In this document: positions 4,966-22,053 of the stretch, in pieces
Layout: the number at the start of each line of letters is the position of its first letter
Numbering within the stretch: the first letter of the stretch is position 1
Virus record (IMG/VR): IMGVR_UViG_3300045953_000161
Coordinates: 1 to 22,713 of that record
Length of the DNA: 22,713 nucleotides
From: a virus
Strand: one strand, 5' to 3'
The notes under the pieces: model-generated
Told to the model about the DNA's origin: nothing
What the model saw: only the letters and a program-made list of their open reading frames with translations
Databases searched by the model: none
Made by a program: the position numbers and the translations under genes

Positions 4966-7206
4966 CTAGCTCCCCGCCCCGCCGGTGCGGTAGTAGTCCC
5001 CGAGGGCGGAGGCGATGATCCCCACGGTCGCCCCGCTGGGCGCGGCGGCTTCGCGGACGCGCATCCCGAGCCGGGCCATCCCGTCCGAGAGGGCGGTCAC
5101 CCCCTGGGTGGTCTCCTCCACCGCACCCGTGAGGGCCGCCAGCCGGGCCGCGAAGGCGTCGACGGTCACCACGCCCCGGGCCTCGCCCGGCCGCAGCCCG
5201 GCCCGGCGCTCGGCCTCCTCCAGAATGTCCTGGCGGATGCGGTCCGTCCGGGCCTGCGTCCGGAGCCCCGTGACGAGGGCACTCATGGCCGAGGCCAGGG
5301 CCTCGGGGCTGCCCAGCTGGCCGAAGCCCGTCTGGGGCAGCAGGCCGAGGGCCCCGGCCACCAGCTGGTCGAGGGTCGAGCCGAAGCCGCCGGCCCCGGC
5401 CGGGCCGCCGACGCGGCCCACGGTCGTGGGGCCGCCGCCCCCAACCCGACGTTCCGCGGCGCTCACGGACGCGAGGGCCGCCCCCGTCTGCTTCCCGGAG
5501 ACGGCCAGGGCATCAAACGCCGACGCCGACGAGAGCACCCGGGTGGTCATCGTCTCGGCGGCGTCGGCCACCGCCAACATGTCCGCGTCCACGGATTGCC
5601 CGGTGAGTTCCCGGGACACGGCCGCCGAGGCCGCCGCGAGTTGCTGTGACGCGCTCGTGGCACGATCCAACGTCGTGATGAGCTGGAGCCCGGCGGACAC
5701 CACGGCAAACATCGCCTCGGGCATCGTGGCCAGGCTGGAGGCCAGGTCGCGCACGGGCGGGGCCGCCTCAGCCGCGGACTCCCCGACGCGGATCAGCGAC
5801 GAGGCGGCCTGCCCGGTCGCCTCGGACAGCCCCGCCGGGCCGAACGTCTCCAGAATCTGCTCGCGGATGCGCGCGGTCCCCGAGGAGATGGCCTCCAAGG
5901 CCGGGGGCACGGCGGCGGCCAAGCCGGCCGTGACCTTCTGCGTCTTTTCGCGTTCGGCCCGAATGTCCGCTTCTAGTTCGGCGATGATCCGCTTGCGTTT
6001 CTCCGCCTCCTGCTGGACGATGGCCGTCCAGGCGCGCTCCTGCGTCTCCCGCGTCGTGAAGGTCTTCCCGACGGCCGCCAGGGCCGCGGTGGTTTCCTGG
6101 TCCAGGATCGTCAGCTTCTCGGCCGCCGCGAGCTGCAGGGCCGCCACCGTGTCCCCGGCCGCCTGCCGCTCCGCCGCGGCGCGCTCCAGGATCGACGTGA
6201 TGGCGCCTTGCTCCAGCTTGGCCAGGGCCTCACGCTCCTTCGCCACCGCCTGCGGGTCCACCCCCGAGGCGCCGCCGAAGAAGCCCCCCGAGGCGCCGCC
6301 CCCACTGAGCGGCCCGCTCGGCGCCGCGGGCCCGCGGCCCGCCAGCGCGTTGAACCACTCCGCCAGGTCCGTCTTCCCCTGGCGCGCGGCCGTCCCGGCG
6401 GCGGTCAGGTCCTTGATCAACTGCGTGAGCGGGGGCAGCAGCACGCGGCCGATGCCGTGCCCCACGGCGGTCGTCGCGGCGCCGAGCTCGGCCAGCGCGT
6501 CCCCAAACTCGTCGGCCGCCCGGGCCGCGTCCCCGCTCACCACCAGGCCGAGCTCCTCGGCCTTGGCGATGACGGCCGGTAAGCCTTGATCGCTGAGATC
6601 GGCCAGGAGGGGCAGCAACTCGGCGCCGGCCTTCCCGAACACCTCGAGCGCCGCCGCCGTCCGCTGGGCCGGATCGACAATGCCCGCAATCTGCCGCGCC
6701 AACGTCTCGAACTGCTGCTCGGGCGTCTGCCGCCGCAGCTCGGCCAGGTTGACGCCAAGCGCCCGGAAGGTCTCCTGCGCCTCGCCCGTGCTGTGGCCAG
6801 CCGCGACCACCGCCCGCTGCATCTGGCCAAAGCCCCGGGCCACGTCGCCCAGCGCCACCCCCGACTGCTCGGCCAGGAGCCGGAAACTCGACAGGGCCTC
6901 CACGGAGGCGCCCGTCCGACGGGAGAGGTCGTACAGTTCCCCATCCGCCTTCGCCGCGGCGTTCGCCAGGCTCACGAGGGCACTGGCCATGGCTACCACC
7001 GCGCCGCCGGCCGCGCCGGCCACCAGCCCCATCGGCCCCATCCGTGTAATCAGCCCCTGCAGCGCCCGCCCCGCTGTCGGGGACAGCTTCGCGATCGGCT
7101 CGATCCCGATTTGCGTGAGCCGCTGGAGCGCGCCCCCCAGGCGCTCGACCCCCTGGCTGGCCAGATCCCGGAACGCCGCGACGATCTCGATGGTGCTGGT
7201 GGCCAT
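4966..7206 (-). CDS. Tail tape measure protein
   Basis: A 746-residue protein, mostly helical, whose ATG overlaps the stop of the chaperone extension (TGATG). It sets tail length and passes into the host at infection. Features include an N-terminal amphipathic region (FRDLASQGVERLGGALQRLT, 12-31), a hydrophobic segment at about 56-83 (GPMGLVAGAAGGAVVAMASA), and LSRRTGASVEALSSFRLLAE (94-113). The last is the 'T-G-s-s-xx-L-s' signature seen in many tape measures (PhageMin_Tail-like). The centre is Ala/Glu/Gln-rich coiled coil (about 320-430) and the C-terminal part is Ala/Ser/Gly-rich. At roughly 0.15 nm per residue the tail would be near 110 nm. No lysozyme or peptidase motif was seen. Confidence 0.92.
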   Translation of the reverse strand: MATSTIEIVAAFRDLASQGVERLGGALQRLTQIGIEPIAKLSPTAGRALQGLITRMGPMGLVAGAAGGAVVAMASALVSLANAAAKADGELYDLSRRTGASVEALSSFRLLAEQSGVALGDVARGFGQMQRAVVAAGHSTGEAQETFRALGVNLAELRRQTPEQQFETLARQIAGIVDPAQRTAAALEVFGKAGAELLPLLADLSDQGLPAVIAKAEELGLVVSGDAARAADEFGDALAELGAATTAVGHGIGRVLLPPLTQLIKDLTAAGTAARQGKTDLAEWFNALAGRGPAAPSGPLSGGGASGGFFGGASGVDPQAVAKEREALAKLEQGAITSILERAAAERQAAGDTVAALQLAAAEKLTILDQETTAALAAVGKTFTTRETQERAWTAIVQQEAEKRKRIIAELEADIRAEREKTQKVTAGLAAAVPPALEAISSGTARIREQILETFGPAGLSEATGQAASSLIRVGESAAEAAPPVRDLASSLATMPEAMFAVVSAGLQLITTLDRATSASQQLAAASAAVSRELTGQSVDADMLAVADAAETMTTRVLSSASAFDALAVSGKQTGAALASVSAAERRVGGGGPTTVGRVGGPAGAGGFGSTLDQLVAGALGLLPQTGFGQLGSPEALASAMSALVTGLRTQARTDRIRQDILEEAERRAGLRPGEARGVVTVDAFAARLAALTGAVEETTQGVTALSDGMARLGMRVREAAAPSGATVGIIASALGDYYRTGGAGS

Positions 7207-7661
7207 CAGCCGCGTCCCCGCGCCTGCCGCGCCGCCGCCGCCTCACCGGCCGCGTGGGCCGCCGCCCGCGTCGCCGCGGCGGCCTCGGCCTGCGCCGCCC
7301 GCGCCGCCGCCCACTCGGCCGAGTCCGCCACCGTCGCCTCGATCAGGTCCAGCGCGTCCAGATCCTCCGGTCGCTGGTCCTCCAGCCCGCCGGCCACCGG
7401 CAGCACGCCGTAGCGGCGCCACCGGGCCCAGAGCGTCAGCCCGGCCTGGACGGCCGGCGCCTGGACCCGGACCATCGGGCAGACCGACGTCGGCGGGAGG
7501 TCGTCCGGGAAGCCCTCGGGGAGCGTCACGGGCGCCGTCCGGCTCGGGTCGGCCACGCAGTTCCGCTCGGTCACGACGTGGCGACCACGGGCACGACAGT
7601 CCCCGCAGTCCCATTGTTCGTGGGCGGGGAGTCGGCTGAACCAGACGGCGTACTGAAACCC
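7206..7661 (-). CDS. Frameshift extension of the tail chaperone (gpT-like part of a G-T fusion)
   Basis: If ribosomes slip by -1 on GGGTTTC, residues 1-129 of the chaperone are joined to 149 more residues, giving a fusion of 278. The extension begins QYAVWFSRLPAHEQWDCGDC and has four Cys (fusion positions 146, 149, 162, 188) in a C-x2-C...C...C arrangement that could bind zinc. ARWRRYGVLPVAGGLEDQRP and an Ala-rich helix follow. The 'LPVAGGLxDQP'-type segment is familiar from genes just before phage tape measures. A separate start at GTG 7574 (GTGA overlap) would give 122 residues and lose the first two Cys, so the fusion is preferred, but both may occur. The stop overlaps the tape-measure ATG (TGATG). 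Confidence 0.7.
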   Translation of the reverse strand, partial: GFQYAVWFSRLPAHEQWDCGDCRARGRHVVTERNCVADPSRTAPVTLPEGFPDDLPPTSVCPMVRVQAPAVQAGLTLWARWRRYGVLPVAGGLEDQRPEDLDALDLIEATVADSAEWAAARAAQAEAAAATRAAAHAAGEAAAARQARGRG

Positions 7662-8041
7662 GCGGCGACCTCGGGCGGGAGCGCGGCGCTCGCGGCCACC
7701 AGCCGGGTCACCTCGGCAACCAGCTCCTCCAGCAGCTCCGGCGCCACCCGGTCCCGGAGCGCCCACAGCGTCGCCCCGTCCGGGATCGGGGTCCCGTCCG
7801 GCGCCTCGACGTGGACCAGCGTGCCGACCACCGCGCGGACGTAGGCCCCGACCATCTCGTCGGTGTCCAGGTCGCCGCCGGCCGCCCGGGCGCGCAGGAG
7901 CGCCCGCTGCAGTGCCAGCCGCCCGCCCCAGCGGGCCCGCGGCGGCCACAGGTCGGCCGTCACGGTCTCGCCGGGGTCCGCCCCCGGGGGGCGGTAGCGG
8001 ATCACGTACACCTCCAGCCCCAACGGCGGGGGCAGCCGCAT
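7571..8041 (-). CDS. Tail assembly chaperone, gpG-like (zero-frame product)
   Basis: A 156-residue protein from ATG at 8041, behind GGAGGGAGG. It occupies the place of lambda gpG between the tube and tape measure genes. These chaperones coat the tape measure and recruit tube subunits, and are not in the finished virion. Residues 30-75 are helical and Ala/Arg-rich; TLWALRDRVAPELLEELVAE (91-110) is a likely helix. The C-terminal 30 residues are low-complexity (GSADSPPTNNGTAGTVVPV). That is typical of a zero-frame tail overlapping a frameshift region and suggests the conserved sequence there is in the -1 frame. The slippery heptamer spans codons 127-129 (last base of codon 127, then GGT and TTC). 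Confidence 0.75.
   Translation of the reverse strand: MRLPPPLGLEVYVIRYRPPGADPGETVTADLWPPRARWGGRLALQRALLRARAAGGDLDTDEMVGAYVRAVVGTLVHVEAPDGTPIPDGATLWALRDRVAPELLEELVAEVTRLVAASAALPPEVAAGFSTPSGSADSPPTNNGTAGTVVPVVATS
7601..7646 (-). other. Two stem-loops downstream of the frameshift site
   Basis: The first hairpin (7631-7646) starts eight bases after the heptamer: GTC-GG pairs with CC-GAC around a five-base loop, with one bulged base. The second (7601-7629) has CCCCG pairing with CGGGG outside and CCCA with TGGG inside, a seven-base loop CGAACAA and a four-base bulge. The eight-base spacing of the first hairpin is in the range normal for stimulators of -1 frameshifting. Any pseudoknot was not evaluated. 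Confidence 0.5.
7655..7661 (-). promoter_or_regulatory. Candidate -1 ribosomal frameshift site GGGTTTC
   Basis: The heptamer fits X-XXY-YYZ with X=G, Y=T, Z=C and is in the correct phase for the chaperone frame (G-GGT-TTC slipping to GGG-TTT). Gly and Phe tRNAs would keep pairing after the slip. Lambda uses GGGAAAG at the same place in its G gene. The frame entered after the slip is open for 149 codons, right up to the tape measure start. Confidence 0.65.
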
Positions 8042-8054
8042 ACAGCCCTCCCTC

Positions 8055-9251
8055 CTAGTCGAAGACGATGTTGACCGTGTCGCTCCCCGGCGTGGCCGAG
8101 GCCAGCGCCTGGAAGGGAATCTCGAACTCGAACGACGGCCCGCCGCCGTCCACCGTCGGCGGGTCCAGGAAGCGCACCCGGTCCAGGTTGATCGTGACCC
8201 GCTGTGTCCCCGCCGACCCGGCGATGATGGCCACGTCCTCCACCGTCTCGCGCTTGTAGTTGCTGAGGAGCTGGTGGAGCTGCTGCCGGGAGTAGGCCCG
8301 AATCCGGCCCGTCACCTGGAGCGGCCCGGTGCGGACGTACCCGGTCAGGGCCGCCTCCCCGTACTCGTCGAGGCGCGGCTCGAGCTGATTGTCGATGACC
8401 ACCGTCACGCTCTTGACCCGGTGCGCGGTCCCCGTCAGGCTGACGGAGCCCAGCATCACCGGGAGCACGGCGTCCGGCGTGCTGGCATCGGCCCCGGGGG
8501 TGTACGGCTGGACGGTCGCCCCGTTCGAGTGCGACGCGGCCGAGGTCCCGTCCTGGGCGCGCAGCACCGTCAGGGTGTGCGTGCTGTAGTCGATGGCCGT
8601 GACGAGCATGGCCTCGGTGTCGATCTTGATCCGAATCTGGTCCCCGGCCGCCGGCCCGAGGACGAAGGGCCGGGAGTTGGTGACGACCAGCGAGGTCACG
8701 ATGTTGTCGATCCCGCCGTTCAGGGTCGTCACGCCGGCCAACACCGAGGCGCCCCCGAAGCCCTCCAGGGTGACCCGCCCCGACGCCGGTCGGTCGCCGG
8801 AGAGCTCGATCGTGCAGCGGTTGGCCTTGCAGCCCCGAAGGCCGTGGAGGAGGTTGTCATCGAGGAGATGCCAGAGCGTGCAGCTCGTCTCCTCGATATC
8901 GGCCAGGGGGCTGTAGGTGACGCTCACGCCGCCGTTCACCGTCTCCGTCCCGAACAGGTCCTTGAGCAGCACGGCCAGCTCCGGCACCGTCCCGGCGCTG
9001 GCCGACGCCTTGAGGTAGGTGAGGATCGACCAGGCCGAGGGGACCAGCTTCCCCTTGATGAGCTCGGCCACGTCCGGCGTGGCCCGCCGCTCCTCGCTGG
9101 GCACGTTCTGCTCGACGGCGAGCGGCAGCGACAGCCCGGCCAGCACCCGGATCGCGTCGGTGGTGACCGGGTGGACGAGGGTCTGAAAGGTGCTCTCGAC
9201 CTTCGCCCACAGCTTCTCGCCTCGGGTCAGGCCGTAATCGCGCGGCGGCAT
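8055..9251 (-). CDS. Major tail tube protein with an inserted beta domain
   Basis: This is the probable tail tube subunit, which stacks in rings around the tape measure. It has 398 residues from ATG at 9251, with GGAGGGG upstream. The N-terminal half has the features of long siphophage tube proteins: AVEQNVPSEERRATPDVAEL (45-64), then TYLKASASAGTVPELAVLLK (78-97), then LFG. The C-terminal half has VTLEGFGGASVL (160-171), SVTVVIDNQLEPRLDEYGEA (281-300) and a closing region QVTGRIRAYS...FEFEIPFQAL. Residues 180-250 look like an inserted domain (EAMLVTAIDYSTHTLTVLRA, then DGTSAASHSNGATV) that is also seen in the hub-like protein at 1481-3148. Three Cys (124, 141, 146) lie together before the insertion. 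The stop is 13 bases before the chaperone gene. Confidence 0.8.
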   Translation of the reverse strand: MPPRDYGLTRGEKLWAKVESTFQTLVHPVTTDAIRVLAGLSLPLAVEQNVPSEERRATPDVAELIKGKLVPSAWSILTYLKASASAGTVPELAVLLKDLFGTETVNGGVSVTYSPLADIEETSCTLWHLLDDNLLHGLRGCKANRCTIELSGDRPASGRVTLEGFGGASVLAGVTTLNGGIDNIVTSLVVTNSRPFVLGPAAGDQIRIKIDTEAMLVTAIDYSTHTLTVLRAQDGTSAASHSNGATVQPYTPGADASTPDAVLPVMLGSVSLTGTAHRVKSVTVVIDNQLEPRLDEYGEAALTGYVRTGPLQVTGRIRAYSRQQLHQLLSNYKRETVEDVAIIAGSAGTQRVTINLDRVRFLDPPTVDGGGPSFEFEIPFQALASATPGSDTVNIVFD

Positions 9252-9264
9252 GGTGTCCCCTCCT

Positions 9265-9618
9265 CTACCCGGTCTCGGTGATGACGATCTCGAAGGTCCG
9301 ATCCGGCGGGTGGTGGTCCTTGAGCCCGCCGGCCGTGCGGATGAACCACGCCCAGTAGCGCGCGGGCGTGTCCACGTCGCCCGCCGTGAAGGCGTAGGTG
9401 ACCTCCGCGGGCGTGGCCGGCGGCCCGGCGCTCCCCCGCGTGACCCAGACGGCCGCCTGGTCGTTGACCTTCACGGCGTCGGTGTCCTGACGGATCATGC
9501 GGAAAGCGATGGTGTCCGCGCCGCCCGCCACCAGCGGGGTGCCGTCGGCGTTGTAGAGGAACGCGCGGACCAGCCGGAGCCGGTCACCCTCGCCCCAGGT
9601 CCGGGATTGGACTTTCAC
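9265..9618 (-). CDS. Ig-like small phage protein, resembling baseplate upper-protein N-terminal domains
   Basis: A 117-residue protein with GTG at 9618 overlapping the previous stop by four bases (GTGA). The sequence follows the pattern of BppU-N-terminal-like beta-sandwich domains common in phage baseplate and fibre proteins: GDRLRLVRAFLYNADGTPLV (11-30), TIAFRMIRQD (36-45), VKVNDQAAVWV (49-59), AEVTYAFTAGDVDTPARYWA (71-90), then a final strand RTFEIVIT (107-114). Such genes usually lie near tail-tip genes; here it comes just before the tail tube. The family call is by pattern only. Confidence 0.7.
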   Translation of the reverse strand: MKVQSRTWGEGDRLRLVRAFLYNADGTPLVAGGADTIAFRMIRQDTDAVKVNDQAAVWVTRGSAGPPATPAEVTYAFTAGDVDTPARYWAWFIRTAGGLKDHHPPDRTFEIVITETG

Positions 9619-9800
9619 ACCGTCACCAGGGGGACCGGGCGGTCGTGGCTGCCGGGGAGGCGCGCCCCACGGTCGTCGGCGCCCGTGAGGGCCGCGACGC
9701 GGTCGCCGCTGCCGTCGAGGACGACCGGGCGGGCCAGGAGGGTGACGACCTCCGGGGGCGCGCCCGAGATCACGACGACGAGGACGGCCGCCAGCGGCAT
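9615..9800 (-). CDS. 61-residue hypothetical protein
   Basis: ATG at 9800 overlaps the preceding stop (TGATG). Its TGA is itself overlapped by the next gene's GTG (GTGA), so it is tied into the operon at both ends. The protein starts MPLAAVLVVVISGAPPEVVT, a hydrophobic strand or short membrane-like segment, and continues with Asp/Arg-rich sequence ending SHDRPVPLVTV. The N-terminus lacks positive charge, so a signal peptide is doubtful. The longer frame to 10190 is a shadow of the upstream gene. No family is recognised. Confidence 0.55.
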   Translation of the reverse strand: MPLAAVLVVVISGAPPEVVTLLARPVVLDGSGDRVAALTGADDRGARLPGSHDRPVPLVTV

Positions 9801-10606
9801 CAGAGCCCCACCCCGAGCAGCAGCAGCCCGCCCACTGGGATCGCCGGTGGCGCCGCTTCCTGGAGCGCCACGTACACCGAGGCGTTGTCGGCGCTCGGCA
9901 CAGTCGGATCGGAGGCGTTGCTGGTCCCCGTAAAGATGCGGAACTCGCCCCGGACCGCCATGCCCGTCGCCGCCGCGCCCGCGTCTGCCACCGCCTGGGT
10001 GAACGCGGTAAAATCGGTGGTCACGGTAATGGCCGTGGTGGAGTCCGACTCCGTCGCAATCGCCCGCGCCCACAGGTGCTGCGCGTTCGGCGTGGTGAGA
10101 TTGAGCGACCCCGCGTCGGCGCTGTCGTTCGACGCCTCGGTGCCGGCGACCACGCTGACGACGTTGCCGCCCGTGATCGTGAACTCCCACGCCGAGATGG
10201 CCTTGCTAGTCCTGTTGCCGCCAGCGAAATTGAGCGTGATGGTCCCACCGCTGTCGATCTGGTTGGTGAGCTTGCTGTGCCAGAGGCAGACGATCGCCCC
10301 GTTCGCGGCGCTGGCGGCCTGCGCGTTCATCCACTCCCGGGCCTTGCTCCAGGTGTTCCCGCCCGCGGAGTCGGTCACGGTGTCACACTCGGCCGTGTTC
10401 GCGTCGGTGCCGCTGGCGCTGGCCTCGTCGGTGGCGCCGAGCAAGAGGACGACGTTGCCCGCCTCCGCCGTGGCCGACGTGGTACAGGTGACCGCCGCGT
10501 TGCTGGTCGTGCTGTTGGCGTTGCAGACGGTCCCGATGCTGGTCCAGGCGGCCTCGGCCAGCCCGGGGGCCAGGAGGAGCGTGAGGGCCAGGAGGCGCGG
10601 GCGCAT
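9800..10606 (-). CDS. Exported beta-rich protein with hydrophobic C-terminus
   Basis: A 268-residue protein whose ATG overlaps the preceding stop (TGATG at 10606). MRPRLLALTLLLAPGLAEAA is a Sec signal peptide, with cleavage probably after AEA (19). The mature part holds four Cys (28, 41, 74, 107), an even number that could form disulfides outside the cytoplasm. It also has a pattern often seen in secreted jelly-roll domains: AGNVVLLLGATDEAS, then TVTDSAGGNTWSKA, then IVCLWHSKLT, then ISAWEFTITG. It ends PPAIPVGGLLLLGVGL, a Pro-rich stretch followed by about 12 hydrophobic residues, vaguely like a C-terminal sorting signal but without the usual following basic residues. The function is unknown. 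Confidence 0.75.
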   Translation of the reverse strand: MRPRLLALTLLLAPGLAEAAWTSIGTVCNANSTTSNAAVTCTTSATAEAGNVVLLLGATDEASASGTDANTAECDTVTDSAGGNTWSKAREWMNAQAASAANGAIVCLWHSKLTNQIDSGGTITLNFAGGNRTSKAISAWEFTITGGNVVSVVAGTEASNDSADAGSLNLTTPNAQHLWARAIATESDSTTAITVTTDFTAFTQAVADAGAAATGMAVRGEFRIFTGTSNASDPTVPSADNASVYVALQEAAPPAIPVGGLLLLGVGL

Positions 10607-11754
10607 CAGTGGCTCGGCACCGTGCCGGGGGTGCCGTGGGCGGGGGGGCCGCCGACGGGGGCGGTGATGTCTTTGAGAATGAGCTCAATGGCTGGCCGCT
10701 GCGTGCTCACGTCGCTCCAGGCTGAGCCGTTCCAGGTCGCCGCGTGGGCTGAGGCGCCCAGGGGGAATGCCGTCAGCTCGTCGACGCTGGCCACCTCCAG
10801 CGTGTTGAGCTGGACATTGGAGCCGACCCGCTCAATCCCGACGTAGTACGTCGCGCCGAACGAGAGCGTTACCGGGGTATCGTCCCACCAGACCTCGTGG
10901 AAGCGCCGGTCACTGGTCGTGCTCGCACTCTGGTCGCTGTCGAGCGTGACCGCCTGGAGCACGGCGCCGGCGCTATCCCAGAGGCCGACAATCCACGTCT
11001 GCCCCGCGGCCGGCGTGGAAGCGTTGAAGCGCACCCCGACCGCCTGCCAGGTGGCCGCCCAGCCGCTCGGGAGTGTCACCTTGAGCGCCACCCGATGGCC
11101 GCTCGTGCTGGCCACCAGATTCGTGAAGGCCACCACCGGCACGCCGTAGACGCGCGTGGCGCTTTTGACCGCGTAGCTGGGATCTAAGAGCGTGGGCTTC
11201 GCCCATGATCCGGTGGTATCCAGGAGGGGATAGGGGAACGTGGCGCGCTGGTAGATCGAGGCCCCGTTGGCATAGGTGAAGCTCCCGTTGTTGGTGCCGT
11301 CCACCGTGCCACTGCTGTAGTCGATGACCACGGCCATCAGCTCGCCACGGGCCGGGGTGTAACTGTTGCTCAGCGCGACCCATTGCCATGTGCTATTCCA
11401 GGTGGCGTCAGCGGGCGGGGTGAAGGTCGCCGACGCGGGCGACCCACCCCCCAGCACCGTGCCGGTGGGATTCCCCGAGGCGTCCACGCCTTGCAGGCTG
11501 ATCCGATAGGTCGGAGGCGTGCCCGTCCTGACCCCGTAGCGAAAGCCCGCGTGTGTGAGCGCCACCGCCTCGGGCGCGTGAAAGACCACCGCCTGCTTGT
11601 CCGTCGTCGTGTCGAGGGCCACGGTGCTAAAGGTCGTATTGACGTGCCACCCGACGACGCCAGGCAGATACGCCATGAGGGCATCCGACGCCAGGGCCGG
11701 GCCCGGCGCGGCCAGCGCCAGGGCAAGGAGCGCCGCGAGGAGCCGACGCCTCAT
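10606..11754 (-). CDS. Exported beta-rich protein, probable two-domain surface or fibre protein
   Basis: A 382-residue protein from ATG at 11754, four bases after the previous stop. MRRRLLAALLALALAAPGPA and cleavage after ALA (residue 22) give a Sec signal peptide. Two beta-sandwich-like halves follow. The first, about residues 40-185, contains THAGFRYGVRTGTPPTYRIS and then WQWVALSNSYTPARGELMAV and GSFTYANGAS. The second, about 205-345, contains RVALKVTLPSGWAATWQAVG, TWIVGLWDSAGAVLQ and LSFGATYYVGIERVGSN. Both halves share the order 'strand - Y/W-I-x-L-W/Q-x3-G-x2 - long strand - Tyr-rich strand', so an internal duplication is likely. Its C-terminus is Pro/Gly-rich. There are no cysteines in the mature part. 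No enzyme motif was seen; carbohydrate or surface binding is a guess from the fold pattern. Confidence 0.75.
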   Translation of the reverse strand: MRRRLLAALLALALAAPGPALASDALMAYLPGVVGWHVNTTFSTVALDTTTDKQAVVFHAPEAVALTHAGFRYGVRTGTPPTYRISLQGVDASGNPTGTVLGGGSPASATFTPPADATWNSTWQWVALSNSYTPARGELMAVVIDYSSGTVDGTNNGSFTYANGASIYQRATFPYPLLDTTGSWAKPTLLDPSYAVKSATRVYGVPVVAFTNLVASTSGHRVALKVTLPSGWAATWQAVGVRFNASTPAAGQTWIVGLWDSAGAVLQAVTLDSDQSASTTSDRRFHEVWWDDTPVTLSFGATYYVGIERVGSNVQLNTLEVASVDELTAFPLGASAHAATWNGSAWSDVSTQRPAIELILKDITAPVGGPPAHGTPGTVPSH

Positions 11755-11758
11755 GCCG

Positions 11759-12094
11759 CTACTGCACCCGGATGGGCTGCGCGTTGCCGAGGTCCCAGAG
11801 CAAGGTCTTGCCCTCGACCAGCGCCTCGTTCGAGCCGTCCGGCTGCCGCGCCAGCCACCAGGCGATCAGCAGCGTCCGCGCCGTTCCCACGCTGGCGTTC
11901 AGTTCGTTGACGGCCTCGACCGCCGCGGCCAGCGAGGGGTACTCGATCCCGACGCCGCCTTGGAAGAGGAAGATCACCTGCCCGGTCGGGAGCTGGATCA
12001 CGTCCTGCATCGTCACGCTCACCTGCGCCGCGGTCGGGAGGGCCAGGAGCAGGACGGCGGCGAGGGTCAGACACAGAAGGCGCAGTCGGCGCAT
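11759..12094 (-). CDS. Small exported protein (Sec signal peptide), hypothetical
   Basis: A 111-residue protein from ATG at 12094, chosen because GAGGAGGA lies six bases upstream and because this start places a Sec signal peptide (MRRLRLLCLTLAAVLLLALP, cleavage after TAA, residue 23) at the N-terminus. The mature 88 residues include QLPTGQVIFLFQGGVGIEYP (34-53), a helix LAAAVEAVNELNASVG and the segment TLLIAWWLARQPDG (74-87). The frame is also open to an ATG at 12241 that overlaps the stop of the preceding gene (TGATG). That start would add 49 basic residues and bury the signal sequence. I do not recognise the family. It lies four bases before the next exported protein. Confidence 0.7.
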   Translation of the reverse strand: MRRLRLLCLTLAAVLLLALPTAAQVSVTMQDVIQLPTGQVIFLFQGGVGIEYPSLAAAVEAVNELNASVGTARTLLIAWWLARQPDGSNEALVEGKTLLWDLGNAQPIRVQ

Positions 12095-12100
12095 GGTGGA

Positions 12101-12108
12101 TCCTCCTC
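12101..12108 (-). promoter_or_regulatory. Strong Shine-Dalgarno setting the start at 12094
   Basis: GAGGAGGA on the minus strand, then TCCACC, then ATG. It is one of the best ribosome-binding sites in the window. It supports translation from the internal ATG at 12094 rather than only from the overlapping ATG at 12241. Confidence 0.6.
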
Positions 12109-12240
12109 GGCTCACGGGAAGGTGCCCTTCTTTCTTCATCATGACGCCACTCGCGCCAACCCGGCGAGTAGTCAGGACGCGCTCTCGGCGCCGTAGGTAC
12201 CGGGCCTTCTCATACTCGCGCGTCTCTTCGGCTGTCTTCA

Positions 12241-15144
12241 TCAGGGAAATTGGCCCTTGACGTATTGCACGTGGCCACCGACGTTGGTGCTCGCGGAGGT
12301 CTCCAGGCACAGCGCGTTGCTAATCGCAGCTTTGTGGATGATCGCGCCCGCGCCGCCGTGGCTGATGCCCTGGTTGGCCACCCAGTAGTAAGGGCCGAAC
12401 ATTCCGGTTTCCCCGGTCGCGCACGCGGTCCCCGTCCCATAGACCAGCCGGACGTTTGCCGTGGCGGACACCGAGAGGGAGAAGCCGCAGACGTAGATCG
12501 TCTGGTTGGACGTCAGCGCCACCAGCTCGGCGTTGCCATTCAAGCTCGTCTGGTCGATGTTGACGGTGGTCGTGAGGTTCGGGTCGTTGCACATCGACGC
12601 CGTGAACTGGTGCCCGAACTGATTCGCCTTCGGCGCGATGTACTCCCCATTGCTGGCCGTGGCGGTCGGCGTGTCCTCGCGCACCACCAGGACCGCCACC
12701 CCGGTATCGCCGGAGCCCGCCGCCGCGTCCTCGGCCTTCCCCAAGTGCGCCGCCGAGGTGCCCGGCGTCACGCTGGTGCCGATGGTGGCCACGTTGCCGG
12801 TGGAGTCGCTGGCCAGGGTGACTCGCTGCGTGCCCGCCGACGCGGCGCCGTTGTTCACGGCGGTCGCCGTCCCGGCCACCTGGGCGAGATTGAACGGCTC
12901 GTTGTCGGGGAAGCTGAGCACGTCCACGTCCCCGATGTTGTTGGTCCCCGCCGGGAGCGCCGGCAGGGAGAGCACGTCCACCTGCAGCTCGCCCGCGGCG
13001 TCCACCTTGACGCTGCGGAGCGTCGTCGAGTCGGCGCCGCCGATCAGGACCGCGTGGTTCGGGATGGTGCTGCCCGGCACCCGCTCGGCGCCCCAGAGCG
13101 GCACCGAGGGGGCCGGCGTGGCCTGGAGGGCCACCGTCGCGGTCCCACTGGTGTAGGCATCGGCGCGCACCCGAATGTTGGTCACGCCGGCCAGGGCCAT
13201 GAACAGGAACTGCCCGTTCGCGGCGAGCGACTGCGTGGCCGCCTCGCCGCCGAGGCTCCAGACGTCCATCGCCGTCCAGGTCGTCCCACTGTCCAGCGAC
13301 ACCTCCGGGATTAGCGTCGCCACCCAGGTCCCGGTGAGCGCGAAGCCGGCCCCGGGCGCGCCGTTGAGGGCCAGGCTCACGCTGTCCTCGTCGGCGGTGA
13401 TCGTGTCGGAGACGCTGTTGAACGGCCCGATCGTATGGAGCCGGCCCCGGGCGTCCACCGAGAGCACCGTGCGGTCGTTGTTCGCGTCCACCAGGCTCGC
13501 CGGGGTGTCCTGCCGGACGACGCCCGCCATGGTGACCTGCTCGCCGGCCCCGGTCGCGGTGTCCTCCGCGTACTGCGTCCCCCCGCCGCACCCGGCGCTG
13601 CACTCCACCTGGAGGGAGCCGCCCCCGGTCGCGGTCACCTGGGCGGTGTCCGTGCCGTCCGTGAGGCGCACCCGCCCGATCTCGTTCGCGCCGGCCGGCA
13701 GGGCCGGGAGGGTCAGGACGTCCACCTGGAGCTCGCCGCTCGTGTCCGTGGCGACGTCCTGGGTGTTGCCGCCGCCGTCCTTGCCGCCGATGCGGACGGG
13801 GTTGCCGGAGACGGCCGCGCCGTCCGCCGCGGGACCCGCCACGCTCCAGGGGGGCGAGCCCTGGGTGGCGGTCACCGTCCCGCTCACCGGCTGGGTGACC
13901 CCCGAGCCATCGACGTGGAGCCGGCCGGTGGAGACATTGGCCTGCGTGGTGTCCCCGGTCCCGTCGCGGACGATCCCATCGAAGAACGTCCCCGAGCCGG
14001 CATTGGCCGTCACCGTGCCGGTGACGGTCACGGTGTTCCCGACGGCGGTATGCAGCCGGCCGGCGCTGTCCACGATCAGCTCGGTGCGGTCGCCATCGGT
14101 ATCGACCAGGCTCGACGCCGTGTCGCGGCGGACCACCCCGGCCATCGTCACCTTCTCGGCGGCCGTGGCCGCGGTGTCCTCGTCGTACTGGGTCCCGCCG
14201 CCGACCGCCACCTCGGCGCCGCTGGCGTCTCGGAGGTTGACGTGGAGGGCCCGGAACTCGGTGATCCTCGCCGCCGCGGCATCCCCCTCCGTGACGGTGG
14301 CCGGGCTCGTGTCGTCGCGGTAGCCGCCGATGGGGGTCAAGCTGGTCGTGTCCGGGGTGAAGACGGCGCCGTCCGCGATCGAGGTCCCCCCGGAGCCGCC
14401 ACAGCCGGAGGTGCATTCCACCTGGAGCGAGCCCCCCGCGGTGGTGGTCACCTGGGCGGTATCGGTGCCGTCCATGACGCGCACGCGGCCGATCTCGTTC
14501 GACCCGGCGGGCAGGGCGGGGAGATCCACGTGCAGCCGGCCGCCCGAGACGTTCGCCTGGGTGGTGTCGCCGGTGCCGTCCTTCACCACGCCGTCGAAGA
14601 ACGTCCCGGACCCCGCGTTCGCCGTGACGGTGCCGCTCACCGGCTGGGTCACGCCGGACCCGTCCACCTGGAGCCGGCCGCTCGCCACGTTCGCTTGCGT
14701 GGTGTCCCCGGTGCCGTCCTTGATGATCCCGTCGAAGGTGGTCCCCGACACCGTAAAGGTCCCGCTGCCGGCGTTGCAGGTCAGGGTGCCGGAGACGGGC
14801 TGGGTCACGCCGGAGCCGTCCACGTGGAGGCGGCCGCCGCTCACGTTCGCCTGCGTCGTGTCGCCGGTCCCATCTTTGACCACGCCGTCGAAGGTCGTCC
14901 CGTCCACCGTCAGGGCGCCCGACCCGTCACCGACGACGAAGGTGCCGCTGCCGGCGTTGCAGGTGAGGGTGTTGCTCCCCTTGAGATTCACGTCGAGGGC
15001 GCGGGTGTTGCCGTCCACGTCCTCCGCGGTCAGCGGGCCCGGCGGGTCGGAGCTGCCCTTCTGGCCGGACCAGATTTGCATCTGCGCCGTCGCCGGCCCG
15101 GCCAGGCCGAGCAGGAGCGCGCCCACGAGCGCCCATCGCCGCAT
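12241..15144 (-). CDS. Large exported repetitive beta-rich protein, fibre/adhesin-like
   Basis: A 967-residue protein with ATG at 15144 overlapping the preceding stop (TGATG). The longer frame to 15255 is rejected because it lies in the upstream gene. Residues 1-20 (MRRWALVGALLLGLAGPATA) are a Sec signal peptide with cleavage after ATA. The body is built of repeats. Four copies of a 25-26-residue unit around DGTGDTTQANVSGGRLHVD lie at 85-110, 137-162, 183-207 and 388-413. Two copies of a unit around VTMAGVVR-D lie at 317-366 and 522-571. Two long copies and one short copy of LPALPAG-N-IG lie at 208-250, 479-521 and 726-748. The unique C-terminal 120 residues (851-967) hold four Cys (852, 886, 908, 946) and look like a globular beta head. 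Repeats of the 'PAGxNxIGxV' and 'QPVSGTVTA' kinds are familiar from phage fibre-like proteins. A signal peptide is not expected on a virion fibre. Confidence 0.8.
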   Translation of the reverse strand: MRRWALVGALLLGLAGPATAQMQIWSGQKGSSDPPGPLTAEDVDGNTRALDVNLKGSNTLTCNAGSGTFVVGDGSGALTVDGTTFDGVVKDGTGDTTQANVSGGRLHVDGSGVTQPVSGTLTCNAGSGTFTVSGTTFDGIIKDGTGDTTQANVASGRLQVDGSGVTQPVSGTVTANAGSGTFFDGVVKDGTGDTTQANVSGGRLHVDLPALPAGSNEIGRVRVMDGTDTAQVTTTAGGSLQVECTSGCGGSGGTSIADGAVFTPDTTSLTPIGGYRDDTSPATVTEGDAAAARITEFRALHVNLRDASGAEVAVGGGTQYDEDTAATAAEKVTMAGVVRRDTASSLVDTDGDRTELIVDSAGRLHTAVGNTVTVTGTVTANAGSGTFFDGIVRDGTGDTTQANVSTGRLHVDGSGVTQPVSGTVTATQGSPPWSVAGPAADGAAVSGNPVRIGGKDGGGNTQDVATDTSGELQVDVLTLPALPAGANEIGRVRLTDGTDTAQVTATGGGSLQVECSAGCGGGTQYAEDTATGAGEQVTMAGVVRQDTPASLVDANNDRTVLSVDARGRLHTIGPFNSVSDTITADEDSVSLALNGAPGAGFALTGTWVATLIPEVSLDSGTTWTAMDVWSLGGEAATQSLAANGQFLFMALAGVTNIRVRADAYTSGTATVALQATPAPSVPLWGAERVPGSTIPNHAVLIGGADSTTLRSVKVDAAGELQVDVLSLPALPAGTNNIGDVDVLSFPDNEPFNLAQVAGTATAVNNGAASAGTQRVTLASDSTGNVATIGTSVTPGTSAAHLGKAEDAAAGSGDTGVAVLVVREDTPTATASNGEYIAPKANQFGHQFTASMCNDPNLTTTVNIDQTSLNGNAELVALTSNQTIYVCGFSLSVSATANVRLVYGTGTACATGETGMFGPYYWVANQGISHGGAGAIIHKAAISNALCLETSASTNVGGHVQYVKGQFP
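13432..14523 (-). repeat. Second and third coding repeat families in the large exported protein
   Basis: One unit, around DGTDTAQVT...GGSLQVEC with a C-x3-CGG end, is encoded at 14395-14523 and 13582-13710. Another, around EDTA...VTMAGVVR-DT, is encoded at 14047-14196 and 13432-13581. In the second occurrence the two units are directly joined. In the first they are separated by 66 residues of different sequence. This suggests duplication of a module followed by insertion or loss of a piece. Confidence 0.75.
13906..14892 (-). repeat. Four copies of a 25-26-residue coding repeat
   Basis: The copies lie at 14815-14892, 14659-14736, 14524-14598 and 13906-13983. Each encodes a variant of FDG-V/I-V/I-K/R-DGTGDTTQANV followed by GRLHVD. 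The DNA copies differ mainly at third codon positions while the peptide is nearly constant. The repeat is therefore old and kept at the protein level, rather than a recent slippage product. Copies 1 to 3 are close together. Copy 4 is separated by about 540 bases of other repeat types. Confidence 0.85.
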
Positions 15145-15539
15145 CACGCTGTGCCTCCCCAGCCCACCACCTGGCTTGCGTTCGCCGCGATCACGAAGAG
15201 CTTCACCGCGTCGTCGATGGCCACCACCACGTCCCGGCCTGGATAGAGCGGACACCCGGTGCTCGTGGTCACGCCGCTCGGGCCCCAGAACACCGGATGG
15301 GCGTTCGTCGGGAACGCGACGAGCAGCAGGCCGCCGGCTCGGAGTGGCGTCGCGCTGCCGACCAGGGCCTCGGCCGTCACAGTCGGCACCGTCTTCTGCC
15401 CGGCCTTGACCGTCTCGCCGGGCTCCAACTGGACCCGCTCGGCGGTGACGGGCAGCCCGGACTCCGTGCCGACCTGCTTGGCGCCGAGCTTGTGGGTCGC
15501 GGTCCCGGTGAAGGCATAGGCGAGATTGCTGTCGGCCAT
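15144..15539 (-). CDS. Hypothetical beta-rich phage protein, first gene of the cassette
   Basis: A 131-residue protein starting ATG one base after the terminator stop. There is no signal peptide. The N-terminus MADSNLAYAFTGTATHKLGA is followed by many short strands. The second half (GGLLLVAFPTNAHPVFWGPS, 69-88, then TSTGCPLYPGRDVVVAIDDA, 92-111, then KLFVIAAN) has the pattern 'V.wG...vt...G.pL.pG..v.....d...lyvia', which I associate with small jelly-roll or decoration-type domains in phage proteins, though I cannot name a family. Its stop overlaps the start of the large repeat protein by one base (TGATG), so the two are probably translationally coupled. Confidence 0.75.
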   Translation of the reverse strand: MADSNLAYAFTGTATHKLGAKQVGTESGLPVTAERVQLEPGETVKAGQKTVPTVTAEALVGSATPLRAGGLLLVAFPTNAHPVFWGPSGVTTSTGCPLYPGRDVVVAIDDAVKLFVIAANASQVVGWGGTA

Positions 15540-16432: not shown

Positions 16433-17044
16433 TCAGAAGGCGAACCGCCGGTGCGGCCACAAGCGCGCCACCGCCAGCCCGTAGAGCCGGTTGCTCTCGT
16501 ACGTCGTGGCCTGCCCATTCAGCGACACCGACACCTCCTCCAGCCGCCGCCGGTCCCGGCGGACGAAGGTGTCGAGGGCCAGGAGGATGGCCGCCTCTTT
16601 CAGCTCGGCCGGCGCGTTCGCGCGGGTGTGCCCCGCCGTGTAGGACACCTTGATCCCGAGCGGACCGCTCCACCACCCGCCCGCGCGCTCCAGATACCGC
16701 CGAGCCTGTGGATCGTTCGGGTTGGGGTCCCCGCGCAGCCGCACCTGGAAGTCGTCCGGGTCGCCATCCGCCTCGGAGAGCCACACGGTTTGCGCCGTCC
16801 CGTCCACCGTCAGGCTGGCGACCGCCGTGATCGGCCACTCCAGCGCCCACAGCCGGCACCCGTCCACCGGGTCCAGCCGGACGTTCGTGTAGCCCGTCGA
16901 GAGCAGCCGCCGGCCGGTCTCCCGCTCCAGCCGGTCGGCTGCCTCATTGAGCGCCGCTACGAGGTTTAGGTCCTCCGTGGACTGGAGCCCGAACGCCTGC
17001 GCCAGGTCCTCGACCGTGACGAGGCTGTGCTCCGCGAGGGGCAC
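16433..17044 (-). CDS. gp6-like head-tail connector protein
   Basis: This is an adaptor that docks under the portal and starts the neck. It has 203 residues from GTG at 17044, seven bases after the previous stop. The N-terminal helices (LVTVEDLAQAFG, then LVAALNEAADRLERETGRRL at 28-47) match the gp6-like/DnaT-like connector pattern. The next segment, YTNVRLDPVDGCRLWALEWP (52-71), resembles the common 'Y..v.dg.g...l.L...Pi' strand, and YTAGHTRANAPAELKEAAIL (136-155) matches the conserved YTaGy-x-x-x-P-x-x-l-x-x-A motif. The C-terminal helix ends near LYGLAVARLWPHRRFAF. Family membership is judged from these motifs and the position after the capsid gene. Confidence 0.85.
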   Translation of the reverse strand: MPLAEHSLVTVEDLAQAFGLQSTEDLNLVAALNEAADRLERETGRRLLSTGYTNVRLDPVDGCRLWALEWPITAVASLTVDGTAQTVWLSEADGDPDDFQVRLRGDPNPNDPQARRYLERAGGWWSGPLGIKVSYTAGHTRANAPAELKEAAILLALDTFVRRDRRRLEEVSVSLNGQATTYESNRLYGLAVARLWPHRRFAF

Positions 17045-17051
17045 GGCCCCG

Positions 17052-17573
17052 TTACGGCGAGCCCTCGGCCGGGCTCAGATGCCGCTCCCCCGCCACGTTA
17101 GTCCCGTGCGCCGCGGTCGGCTTGGCCCGGCCCCGGTACTGGATGTACGTCGCGCCGCCCACCGTCGCGTTCTGGGTCGCGCGCGACACCACCACCCGGA
17201 CGTAGCGTTCCGCCGGGCGCCGGAGGTCGAGATAAAAACTCTTGTCATCGGAGTCGTCGGCCACCGTCTGCCCAGTCCCTGCGAGGTCCGCGCAGTCGGA
17301 GCAGTCCGACGCCGCCCCCTGTTGGGCCTTGATCGAGGTCACGGCCCCCGTCACGATGGCGCCGAAGGGCACCACCACCAACACCCCGTCCCACCCCGCC
17401 ATGTCCAGGGTGGCCCCGTTGATCCCCGTCGCCCCGGCCGCCCCGGCGGTCGGGGTGATGGCGATGGTCAGCTTGGTCTCATCGGCCAGGTAGGCCACCT
17501 GGCCCTGGGCCACCGACCCGAGGAGGGTCAACCCCACGAGCAGGCCCGCGAACAACCCCCGCTGGATGTACAT
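17052..17573 (-). CDS. Small exported protein (Sec signal peptide) in the neck module
   Basis: A 173-residue protein from ATG at 17573, preceded by GGAGGGCTGAGGACC, a good ribosome-binding site. The N-terminus MYIQRGLFAGLLVGLTLLGS is a classical Sec signal peptide, with likely cleavage after SVA (residue 22). The mature part is probably all-beta: a GAAGATGING turn-rich segment, a hydrophobic strand GVLVVVPFGAIVTGAVTSIK (63-82), a Cys pair SDCSDCAD (89-96), then LRRPAERYVRVVVSRATQNA (117-136). The longer frame open to 18224 runs through the two preceding genes and is a shadow. A signal peptide is odd for a gene between capsid and connector genes. Its beta-strand pattern could fit a decoration or surface protein, but no family was recognised. 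Confidence 0.75.
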   Translation of the reverse strand: MYIQRGLFAGLLVGLTLLGSVAQGQVAYLADETKLTIAITPTAGAAGATGINGATLDMAGWDGVLVVVPFGAIVTGAVTSIKAQQGAASDCSDCADLAGTGQTVADDSDDKSFYLDLRRPAERYVRVVVSRATQNATVGGATYIQYRGRAKPTAAHGTNVAGERHLSPAEGSP

Positions 17574-17941: not shown

Positions 17942-19336
17942 TCAGCTCGCCGCGTTGACGAAGACCTTGACCGGCCCCGTCCCCGCGTTCAGCAAGTCGC
18001 CGTCCATGCGCGCGAAGGCGAGGAAGGCGACCTGGTGGAAATCGGCGTACCGCTCGTCCAGCCGCAGGAGGGTGATGCCGAGCACGTCGCGGATGAGGTA
18101 CTTGCTGAGATCGCCGAAGAGCACGCTCTTGGCACTCAGCGCCATCGCGGCCACGTCCTGGTTGACGACGATGGGGTAGCCCATCAGCGTGTCGGGCGCC
18201 CCGCCTGCGATGCCGGGGGCCCACAGCGGCCGGCCCGTGCTGTCCAGGATCAGCTTGGTCTTCTTGACGCTGGAGTCGGCCATCATGAAGGCCGCGTTCG
18301 CCCGGTAGGCCGGGTCCACGCTGTGCTCCAGCTCCACGATCGACGTGTACTTCCAGGTAGTGACCTGGCCGTCACCGTTCGGCGCGGTGAAACCCGTCGG
18401 GGCCGCCGTCACGATGCCGTTCGGCTGGCCCGAACCGGTGCCCGTGGTGAAGTGGGTATTGGTGATCCGCCCGATGCGGGTCCCGAGGGCCTCCCCCAGG
18501 TACGCCCCGATGTTGATGGCGTTGTCCTGGAGCAGCTCGGCCGACACCAGCACCTGCTTGCTGGAGTACTTGTAGGCGTCAAGCACAAGCTGGGCGAAGG
18601 CCACATCCTGGTTGGAGACCTGGGTGTTCTCGGCCAGGAGCGCGCCGACGTTCCCGGTGTCGTTCACGGTCGGAATGGGCAGGGCCGCCCCGGTCGAGGT
18701 CCGCAGGATGGTGCAGCGCTGGCGCATCCCCCCGAAGGCCAGGAGGGCCACCTCCAGGGCCCGCATCAGCTCGTCCGGCACCGCGAAGGCCCCGGCCGCG
18801 CCGGTCCCGAGCCCCTGCGCGCGGTACTCCCAGCCGCGCCGGTCCGCCTCCAGGAGCGAGCGCATCGGCTGCGTGGAGAGCTGCACCTCCAGCGTCTTGC
18901 TCGCCGGCTCGATCCCCAGCCGGTCCAGCAGGCTCCGGTCCTCGCTCGTGTAGTTGTACCCGCTCGTCGCCGCCCCCAGCAGCCAGAGGCGCAGGCCGCG
19001 CGCGGCCTCCTCCTGCCCCCGCCGGGCGTAGCGGATGGCCGCGGGCCCGGAGCGCGGCTCGGGCTCGGCCGCGGGCGCCGTCTTCCGGGGCTCGACCTCC
19101 GCCAGGCGGGCCTCGATCGCGTCCTGCTTGATCCGCATCTCGATGTTCTTGCCCAGTGCCTCGATCGCCTGGTCACGGGCCTGCCACTCCTGCTCTTCCT
19201 CGGCAGACATGAGCTCGCGGCCGTCCTTCTGGACCTTGGCGAGCAGCGCGATGTTCTCCTCGTGCAGCCGCTTTCGCTTCTCGACCAGCTCCTTGACCAT
19301 CCCTGGGATCCCCCGCTTCCGCCGGAGGGCGCCCAT
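17942..19336 (-). CDS. HK97-fold major capsid protein with N-terminal scaffold-like domain
   Basis: This is the main shell protein of the head (Phage_capsid family, HK97 gp5-like). It has 464 residues from ATG at 19336. A second ATG at 19300 (residue 13) begins a more natural coiled coil and would give 452 residues, so the start is uncertain between the two. Residues 13-80 are charged and helical, like the HK97 delta domain. An Ala/Pro/Glu-rich linker (81-100) follows, and protease cleavage would probably fall a little after it. The fold region begins near GAAGAFAVPDEL (179-190) and includes ALPIPTVNDTGNVGALLAEN (218-237), a likely E-loop/spine helix segment, GTGSGQPNGIVT (299-310), LMGYPIVVNQDV (384-395) and FGDLSKYLIRD (407-417). 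No sequence clue to covalent cross-linking could be judged. Confidence 0.95.
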   Translation of the reverse strand: MGALRRKRGIPGMVKELVEKRKRLHEENIALLAKVQKDGRELMSAEEEQEWQARDQAIEALGKNIEMRIKQDAIEARLAEVEPRKTAPAAEPEPRSGPAAIRYARRGQEEAARGLRLWLLGAATSGYNYTSEDRSLLDRLGIEPASKTLEVQLSTQPMRSLLEADRRGWEYRAQGLGTGAAGAFAVPDELMRALEVALLAFGGMRQRCTILRTSTGAALPIPTVNDTGNVGALLAENTQVSNQDVAFAQLVLDAYKYSSKQVLVSAELLQDNAINIGAYLGEALGTRIGRITNTHFTTGTGSGQPNGIVTAAPTGFTAPNGDGQVTTWKYTSIVELEHSVDPAYRANAAFMMADSSVKKTKLILDSTGRPLWAPGIAGGAPDTLMGYPIVVNQDVAAMALSAKSVLFGDLSKYLIRDVLGITLLRLDERYADFHQVAFLAFARMDGDLLNAGTGPVKVFVNAAS

Positions 19337-20097: not shown

Positions 20098-22053
20098 TCA
20101 GGCCGCACGCAGCACCTCCTCCTGAATCCGGTCGGCATAGACTGCCGGGCGCTCGGCTTCCCAGCGCGCGGTGAGCGCGGCCACGGCGGCCGGCAGCGCC
20201 TCGGGCGGCCCGGCGAGCGCTGCCTCCAGCGCCGCCCGCGACTCGGCCGTGGCCGTGGCGACCAGGGCATCGAGGGTGGCGTCGGTGTCCGCCTCCCGGC
20301 CCGCCAGAGCCAGGTGGAGCGCCAGGACGGGCCACAGCCGGCTCCGGGCCCGCGCGGCCTGGCGGGGGTAGAAGCCCGCCATCCAGGCCCGGAGCTTGTC
20401 GGGGGACTCGGCCGCCCGCCGCGCCCGCTCCCCCTCCGTCCGCACGAAGAGCCGGAGCTGGTCTTCCAGGAGCGCCCGCAGCCGGGGGGCCAGGGCGGCC
20501 ACCTGCGCCCGGTGGGCGGTCGTCTCGGCCAGGAGGGGCGCCAGGTCCGACGGCCGGGCCGCCAGGGCCGTCAGCCGCTCGGCCACGCCGTCCAGCGTCG
20601 CCCGCAGCTCGTGCGCCGTCGCGGCGGTCGCGGTGCTCAGGCTCGCCAGCTCGCTGGCCACCGCCGCCACCGTGGCACGCAGGCCGTCGTCCTGGAGGGC
20701 GGCCGGCAACTCGGCCAAGCGCCGCTCCACGTCGGCCAGGACCGGCGCCACCACCAGGCGGACGGCCGCACGGGCGGCCTCGGCCTGGTCCTCGGCGGGC
20801 GGCGGGGCCGGCGCGGGGGCCGGCGGCGGCCGGACCTGGGCGTCCACCACGTCGTTCAGCCGGTCGGCGGGGACCATGTTGGTCGGCACCAAGTACACGT
20901 CCCCGCCCGGAATGGGGTTGAGGTTCTCCTTCTCGCGGATATCGTTGATCGAGAAGAAGCCCCACTGCGAGGCGATGGCGTAGGCCTGAAACCGCGTGAG
21001 CGTGTCCGCCCGCAACACCGCATCGTCGAGAAACTGCGCGAACTGCTGGCCCCGCTCCAGCGGCCGGATCAGGGACCGCGCGATCTCCTGCTCCCACAGC
21101 ACCAGCCAGGGCCGGAGCGTGGTCCGCGCAAAGTCCAGCGCCTCCTGTTCGGTGTTCGAGTACGTCGAGCGCGAGAGGTCGCGGAGCTTGGTCGGGCTGA
21201 TGTTGAAGATGCGGCAGACCTCCAGCACCTGAAACTGCCGCGTCTCCAGGAACTGCGACTCCTCCGGGGGCGTGCCGACGGCGTGGTATTTCATCCCCTC
21301 TTCGAGGATGGCGACCTTGTTCGCCTTGGCCACCCCGCGATGAATCCCGTCCAGGGCGTCGCGCAGGGATTTCTTGACCGTCTCGGACAACCGGCCCGGG
21401 TGCTCCAGGATGCCGCCGAACCGGGTGCCGTTCCCGAAGAACGCAGCGCCGAACTGCTCCGTGGCCATCGTCAGCCCCAGCGCCTCACGGAACAGCCGGA
21501 TGGGCGCGTAGCCCTTCATCGCGTCCCCGAGGCCCGGGAGGTGGAAGATGCGCTCGTCGGGCAGCGTCACCCGCGTCCCGTCGTCCTGGACGAAGTCCCA
21601 CACCCGCCGAGCGCCGTCCATGCGTGGGCTCAGGAGCGGGGGGAAGATGCGGTGGAGCTCGGCCACATCCCCCTTGGCGTTGCGGAGGATCTCCGCGTAG
21701 CCGTTCCCGTGGATCAGCGCGTCCTGCTGGAGCGTCTGCCGGAACACCATCGCGGTGCAGGTCGGGTTGGCGAGGTCGTGGAGAACCGGGTAGAGCGGAT
21801 GGCCCGTGTAGCGTTCCTTCCCCCCAGTCGGCAGGCGCCGGTAGAGGTGCAGGGGGAGCGCGGCCACGCCGTCCGCGATCACCTTGACGGCGGCCCAGAC
21901 GGCCGCGATCTGGAGGGCGGTCTGTTCGGTCACGGCCACGCCGGAGAGCCCGGGGCCGGCGCCGAAGAGCGACACCAGGGCCTTGTCGCCGGAGCCGAAC
22001 GGGCCCAGCCAGTGACTCCGGAGCGTCGCCCACGTTCTACCCCACCGAGACAA
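20098..22053 (-). CDS. HK97-family portal protein with long C-terminal extension
   Basis: This is the portal, the dodecameric ring at the capsid vertex through which DNA enters and to which the neck and tail attach. It has 651 residues. Residues 40-405 are a typical HK97 gp3-like core: VTEQTALQIAAVWAAVKVIA near the start, QDALIHGNGYAEI at 110-122, ISPTKLRDLSRSTYSNTEQE at 285-304, and SINDIREKENLNPIPGGD at 368-385. The usual family length is about 400-450 residues. Here a Pro/Ala linker (408-420) leads into about 230 further residues. These are Ala/Leu/Arg-rich and probably helical (421-535), followed by a segment around WMAGFYPRQA (557-566) that resembles tails seen on some other portals. The start is TTG, chosen because a perfect GGAGGT sits five bases upstream, within the terminase gene. 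Confidence 0.93.
   Translation of the reverse strand: MSRWGRTWATLRSHWLGPFGSGDKALVSLFGAGPGLSGVAVTEQTALQIAAVWAAVKVIADGVAALPLHLYRRLPTGGKERYTGHPLYPVLHDLANPTCTAMVFRQTLQQDALIHGNGYAEILRNAKGDVAELHRIFPPLLSPRMDGARRVWDFVQDDGTRVTLPDERIFHLPGLGDAMKGYAPIRLFREALGLTMATEQFGAAFFGNGTRFGGILEHPGRLSETVKKSLRDALDGIHRGVAKANKVAILEEGMKYHAVGTPPEESQFLETRQFQVLEVCRIFNISPTKLRDLSRSTYSNTEQEALDFARTTLRPWLVLWEQEIARSLIRPLERGQQFAQFLDDAVLRADTLTRFQAYAIASQWGFFSINDIREKENLNPIPGGDVYLVPTNMVPADRLNDVVDAQVRPPPAPAPAPPPAEDQAEAARAAVRLVVAPVLADVERRLAELPAALQDDGLRATVAAVASELASLSTATAATAHELRATLDGVAERLTALAARPSDLAPLLAETTAHRAQVAALAPRLRALLEDQLRLFVRTEGERARRAAESPDKLRAWMAGFYPRQAARARSRLWPVLALHLALAGREADTDATLDALVATATAESRAALEAALAGPPEALPAAVAALTARWEAERPAVYADRIQEEVLRAA

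Follow-up and report, generated by a model that had tools for sequence, protein, structure and literature searches.

The locus described here raises the question of why an operon that builds a tailed-phage particle should contain several genes whose products begin with predicted signal peptides, since tailed-phage assembly is held to be cytoplasmic. The window analyzed, that is, the whole stretch of DNA under study, is an IMG/VR contig of 22,713 nt from an HK97-type siphovirus, and every gene called in it lies on the minus strand. The gene order begins with terminase, portal, protease, major capsid protein (MCP), two small ORFs, the gene of a protein designated SP5, the head-tail adaptor and the genes at 16030, 15541 and 15144. 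It continues with the genes of the proteins SP1 to SP4, those at 9615, 9265 and 8055, two chaperone-like genes, the tape measure gene, and tail-tip and fibre-like genes (Table 1). In a preliminary description, a cassette of four genes for exported proteins had been placed between a tail terminator (15541) and a tail tube gene (8055), in one operon with virion genes. The operon was confirmed by the gene order and by the joints, with TGATG overlaps at 15144, 10606 and 9800, and a gap of 146 nt before 12094. The names of the two flanking genes derive from gene order, the first being without a PHROG match and the second having its best match elsewhere (Table 1). Nor does that position define such cassettes in general, as the sets found in relatives adjoin portal, capsid or tail genes.

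Table 1. Features of the window and of related contigs; a slash marks the predicted cleavage site.
Feature	Position	Strand	Remarks
Portal protein	20098..22053	-	phrog_12, 5.8e-102; context
HK97-type MCP	17942..19336	-	phrog_10, 1.3e-60; context
SP5, 173 aa, probable capsid decoration protein with gained signal	17052..17573	-	signal peptide MYIQRGLFAGLLVGLTLLGSVAQG/Q
Head-tail adaptor	16433..17044	-	phrog_442, 6.3e-22; context
Small protein without signal, directly upstream of SP1	15144..15539	-	
SP1, 967-aa repeat protein	12241..15144	-	signal peptide MRRWALVGALLLGLAGPATA/Q; C-terminal domain with 4 invariant Cys
SP2, 111 aa	11759..12094	-	signal peptide MRRLRLLCLTLAAVLLLALPTAA/Q; perfect AGGAGG Shine-Dalgarno before ATG
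SP3, 382 aa, orphan	10606..11754	-	signal peptide MRRRLLAALLALALAAPGPALA/S
SP4, 268 aa, minor-tail-like beta-sandwich	9800..10606	-	signal peptide MRPRLLALTLLLAPGLAEA/AW
61-aa gene, uncertain member of the set	9615..9800	-	hydrophobic signal-like N-terminus, score 11.9
Tail tube by position	8055..9251	-	best match phrog_290 'minor tail protein'; context
Tail tape measure protein	4966..7206	-	context
phrog_12102 members in other contigs	L116:2499-3221; L132:1057-1905; L133:6407-7138; L135:2770-3495; L141:6407-7150; L144:2888-3841		fibre-like

Signal peptides predicted in the virion operon

Signal peptides were scored with a heuristic of our own, which looks for a positive n-region, an uncharged hydrophobic core and small residues at -3/-1, and which also picks up signal anchors such as Rz. 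Among 35 genes of lambda, only Lom and Rz reached a score of at least 10, as did 33 of 2811 spurious ORFs (1.2%). The four genes previously described as opening with Sec-type signal peptides (starts 15144, 12094, 11754 and 10606) were confirmed in start and frame, with scores of 12.4, 12.8, 14.3 and 12.1, respectively. Each of their products has a short positive n-region, a hydrophobic core of 8–12 residues and small residues at -3/-1, the features of Sec export and of cleavage by signal peptidase I. When the first 35 residues were shuffled, the observed score was equalled in 0–37 of 2000 trials per protein, and a run of four signal peptides by chance is excluded. The set also proved larger than first noted, as it includes SP5 (score 10.6), which adjoins the MCP gene and had been missed, and, less surely, the 61-aa gene. 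At least five proteins of the operon that builds the particle therefore carry predicted signals, a probable capsid-coating protein among them. After cleavage, the predicted N-termini would be QMQIWSGQK for SP1, AWTSIGTVCNANSTTSN for SP4 and QVAYLADETK for SP5. As had been stated, two of the four original proteins have even numbers of Cys in their mature parts (10, 0, 0 and 4 in SP1 to SP4), and SP5 has 2.

No window protein gave a match above the curated cut-off in Pfam, where SP2 showed a weak likeness, below that cut-off, to DUF6719. No relatives of SP2 were found among the related loci collected, and none of SP3 in those loci, in a scan of viral contigs made for SP3 itself or in phage records. 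An in-frame extension lies upstream of SP2 (12095-12240, MKTAEETREYEKARYLRRRERVLTTRR...) and begins at a TGATG that overlaps the SP1 stop; the perfect Shine-Dalgarno sequence belongs to the real SP2 start.

Relatives with and without a signal

Relatives of SP1, a modular protein made of repeats, occur in 38 viral contigs. A score of at least 9 was obtained for 23 of the 43 family hits, and for two more from an upstream start; another two are incomplete at their 5' end. A predicted signal is kept in most of the 38 loci. The contigs with signals span a GC content of 0.41–0.72. In SP1-family loci, signal genes cluster near the SP1 relative (47 of 209 genes within three genes of it versus 32 of 512 farther away, p = 2e-9). 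Signals recur in diverged relatives, and the order SP1 then SP4 is also found in L005, L020 and L065. The small signal-less protein encoded directly upstream of SP1 has a relative in L006 that is likewise directly upstream of the SP1 relative there.

Exactly four Cys are present in the C-terminal domain of all 21 SP1-family members aligned, and in L054, which is outside that alignment, two of them are absent together, a joint loss that suggests Cys pairing. The four are also conserved in six relatives that lack an N-terminal signal (L007, L019, L037, L076, L078 and L080), which rules out Cys content as sole proof of export: the Cys speak for extracellular stability, not for Sec by themselves. 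Five of these signal-less relatives, those in L007, L019, L076, L078 and L080, carry another N-terminal domain (MRIKIIGENDCARATRHLLR...).

For SP4, 13 distinct relatives were found, five with a signal and eight without. Their alignment places the first Met of the forms that lack a signal precisely at the predicted cleavage site. The domain has 4–7 Cys, often at shared columns, in the members with a signal versus 1–4 in those without. Structure prediction and fold searches, also proposed earlier, gave beta-sandwich-like models for SP4 and SP5 that match minor tail proteins and, remotely, a decoration protein, respectively. The SP4 model, a beta-sandwich (pLDDT 86.7), matched minor tail proteins in BFVD with E values of 5.6e-8 to 1e-3 and TM of about 0.5–0.67, and a search of the PDB returned nothing significant. 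The matched proteins, from Mycobacterium and Gordonia phages, share a beta-sandwich fold with SP4, which has both a predicted signal peptide and four Cys and so departs from the cytoplasmic, signal-less type expected of minor tail proteins.

A scan of viral contigs for SP5 yielded 80 loci, reduced to 66 distinct members, and in nearly all contigs the gene lies 1–3 genes after that of the MCP. The SP5 profile had a single, remote match in the PDB (E 0.0085), the capsid decoration protein of Carin-1 (Cobetia marina phage 1, PDB 8CJZ). The SP5 model (pLDDT 88.7) also matched this structure (8cjz_A, a chain of 129 residues; prob 1.00, TMt 0.55), which is outranked by lectin-type and other beta-sandwich structures, and it matched XepA of PBSX (6i56, E 3.3e-3) at the level of the fold. 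SP5, a putative decoration protein, resembles the Carin-1 protein in profile and fold, with its family encoded beside the MCP gene, but differs in the signal that the window lineage and L109 add.

The signal is rare in this family. It is present in 3 of the 66 rows and is limited to the window lineage (with L040, L082 and L083) and L109, whereas the other 63 members lack it and mostly start right at the domain. In the tree it occupies two separate places, so that two changes are needed, although the starred branches force only one; the signal was gained in the window lineage and, apparently independently, in L109. Mature parts have 2 Cys in every row with a signal versus a mean of 1.1 in those without, a small difference. 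In L083, a 13-kb contig of a sister phage, an exported-type decoration protein is encoded with no further signal gene. The idea that an exported decoration protein goes together with the other signal genes was considered and rejected, as neither L083 nor L109 shows such a link. Two small ORFs lie between the MCP and SP5 genes (17579-17731 and 17741-17932), and in L083, too, two small ORFs of similar length occupy this place.

A fibre-like family, phrog_12102, is encoded directly after the decoration gene and has 11 members with a signal and 16 without. Contigs whose SP5 relative has no signal contain 1,037 genes in all, of which 21 reach a score of 10.5 or higher; many of the 21 are members of this family. 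Core families (MCP, portal, protease, terminase, adaptor and tape measure) had a signal in 1 of 290 cases, a 550-residue MCP call with a start that is probably too far upstream, and the annotated phage records L055-L059 had zero signals in structural genes.

Probable export and possible roles of the proteins

It is very likely that the SP proteins are exported via Sec. Their signals are conserved in relatives, stand exactly at domain boundaries, accompany even and conserved Cys, and occur in a virion operon. The earlier expectation that structural proteins remain in the cytoplasm was tested on the relatives. Because signal-less members of the decoration, minor-tail-like and repeat families sit in blocks of virion genes, the set looks like proteins of the virion exterior to which an export signal was added, and not like unrelated moron genes. 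The occurrence of the same families with and without a signal in relatives suggests that some phages send parts of their outer coat to the outside.

Three roles had been put forward for the exported proteins, namely coating the host surface, acting as decoys or joining the virion after lysis. The last fits best, given the orthologue of a decoration protein in the set; masking or decoy is the main rival. Our first choice, which we put forward tentatively, is that exterior virion proteins are exported by Sec and attached at or after lysis. Late in infection the host Sec system would move them to the periplasm, where the signal peptide would be removed and disulfides would form; virions set free by lysis would then meet the exported proteins and become coated. 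Only exterior proteins could take such a route, since they are the last to be attached and do not have to reach the particle's interior, and this restriction would account for the absence of gained signals among core head and tail proteins. Late addition is physically possible, since pb10 of T5 binds purified capsids with high affinity (PMC5292684). Against late coating, virions and exported proteins would be in separate compartments before lysis, and dilution afterwards would be unfavourable. The window also has an ordinary tail fibre-like gene without a signal (400-1098), and the phage therefore does not depend on the set for its only adhesin. The remote nature of the Carin-1 match, the four Cys of signal-less SP1 relatives and the solitary signal gene of L083 count against this reading as well. 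More broadly, and a little more guardedly still, decoration, fibre and adhesin proteins of some tailed phages might take the Sec route, acquire disulfide bonds in the periplasm and join the particle at lysis, with signals gained and lost family by family.

Alternatively, adhesin and coat domains might have taken on a new task at the host surface or in the periplasm, where they would shield receptors and so prevent progeny from re-adsorbing to debris, or exclude other phages. Llp of T5, a lipoprotein, is an example of such receptor masking and exclusion. Llp and lambda Lom are exported phage-encoded proteins, as the window set is predicted to be, but the former is a lipoprotein and the latter an outer-membrane beta-barrel, whereas the window proteins are soluble-type and beta-rich, some of them orthologous to virion proteins. 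Lom, which has a signal peptide, is sent to the outer membrane and is encoded among tail genes (PMC12309495), speaks for masking, as do the export signals and the adhesin-like families, which comprise the minor-tail-like fold of SP4 and beta-helix and Fn3 proteins with signals in L012 and L036. Surface anchors of either kind, however, were found neither in the N-termini of SP1 to SP5, which when read by eye contain no lipobox, nor in the SP4 and SP5 models, which are not beta-barrels, and masking gives no reason for signals in the decoration and fibre families that adjoin the capsid gene. We consider it unlikely, though still a serious competitor to coating at lysis.

It is improbable that the N-terminal segments serve a purpose other than export, as membrane tethers, assembly leaders or uncleaved parts of cytoplasmic proteins. 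Our heuristic would indeed select some such segments, as it does Rz, but the small residues at -3/-1 are often followed by Q across many phages, the end of the signal coincides with the start of signal-less relatives, and the number of mature Cys is even. Still less probable is lysogenic conversion, in which a prophage would supply surface proteins of benefit to the host, for example adhesins. The proteins are of a beta-rich exported type, and the SP1 domain has seven relatives in bacterial MAG contigs, with bins assigned to Acidobacteriota (four), Nitrospiraceae, Myxococcaceae and Streptosporangiaceae, although the binning of phage contigs is uncertain. That scan used a closer subset of SP1 domains, because 16 distant domains made too divergent a profile for a scan of the collection. 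The genes, however, are part of the late virion operon, in which TGATG overlaps couple them, and orthologues of virion proteins are among the families. Finally, the earlier caution that the true starts may lie downstream of the signals is scarcely credible: an in-frame ATG or GTG does follow soon after the signal in SP1, SP3 and SP5, the case for which rests on relatives and score, but SP4 has no other start until residue 55, inside its domain, the Shine-Dalgarno sequence of SP2 stands upstream of its signal, and diverged relatives have signals as well.

Previous reports and wider occurrence

In the open-access literature, no report of Sec-exported decoration, fibre, minor tail or structural proteins of tailed phages was found; subscription papers were mostly outside this search and novelty is unproven. 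In a review of decoration proteins, the terms signal, periplasm, secret and extracellular are all absent. If such signals are widespread, either particles are finished outside the cytoplasm, or phages recycle coat and adhesin domains as surface shields. Export, if true, would add disulfide-stabilised exteriors to phage biology and would change the annotation of such genes. The one annotated record examined that has a relative with a signal, MW202554, labels it 'glycoprotein repeat domain-containing protein'.

Two other phage contigs have runs of about five or six consecutive signal-peptide genes (L035:6596-13578 and L062:9914-17632). In the window, an overlapping pair of genes (7206-7574 and 7571-8041) lies just before the tape measure gene, the usual spot for the frameshift pair of tail chaperones.
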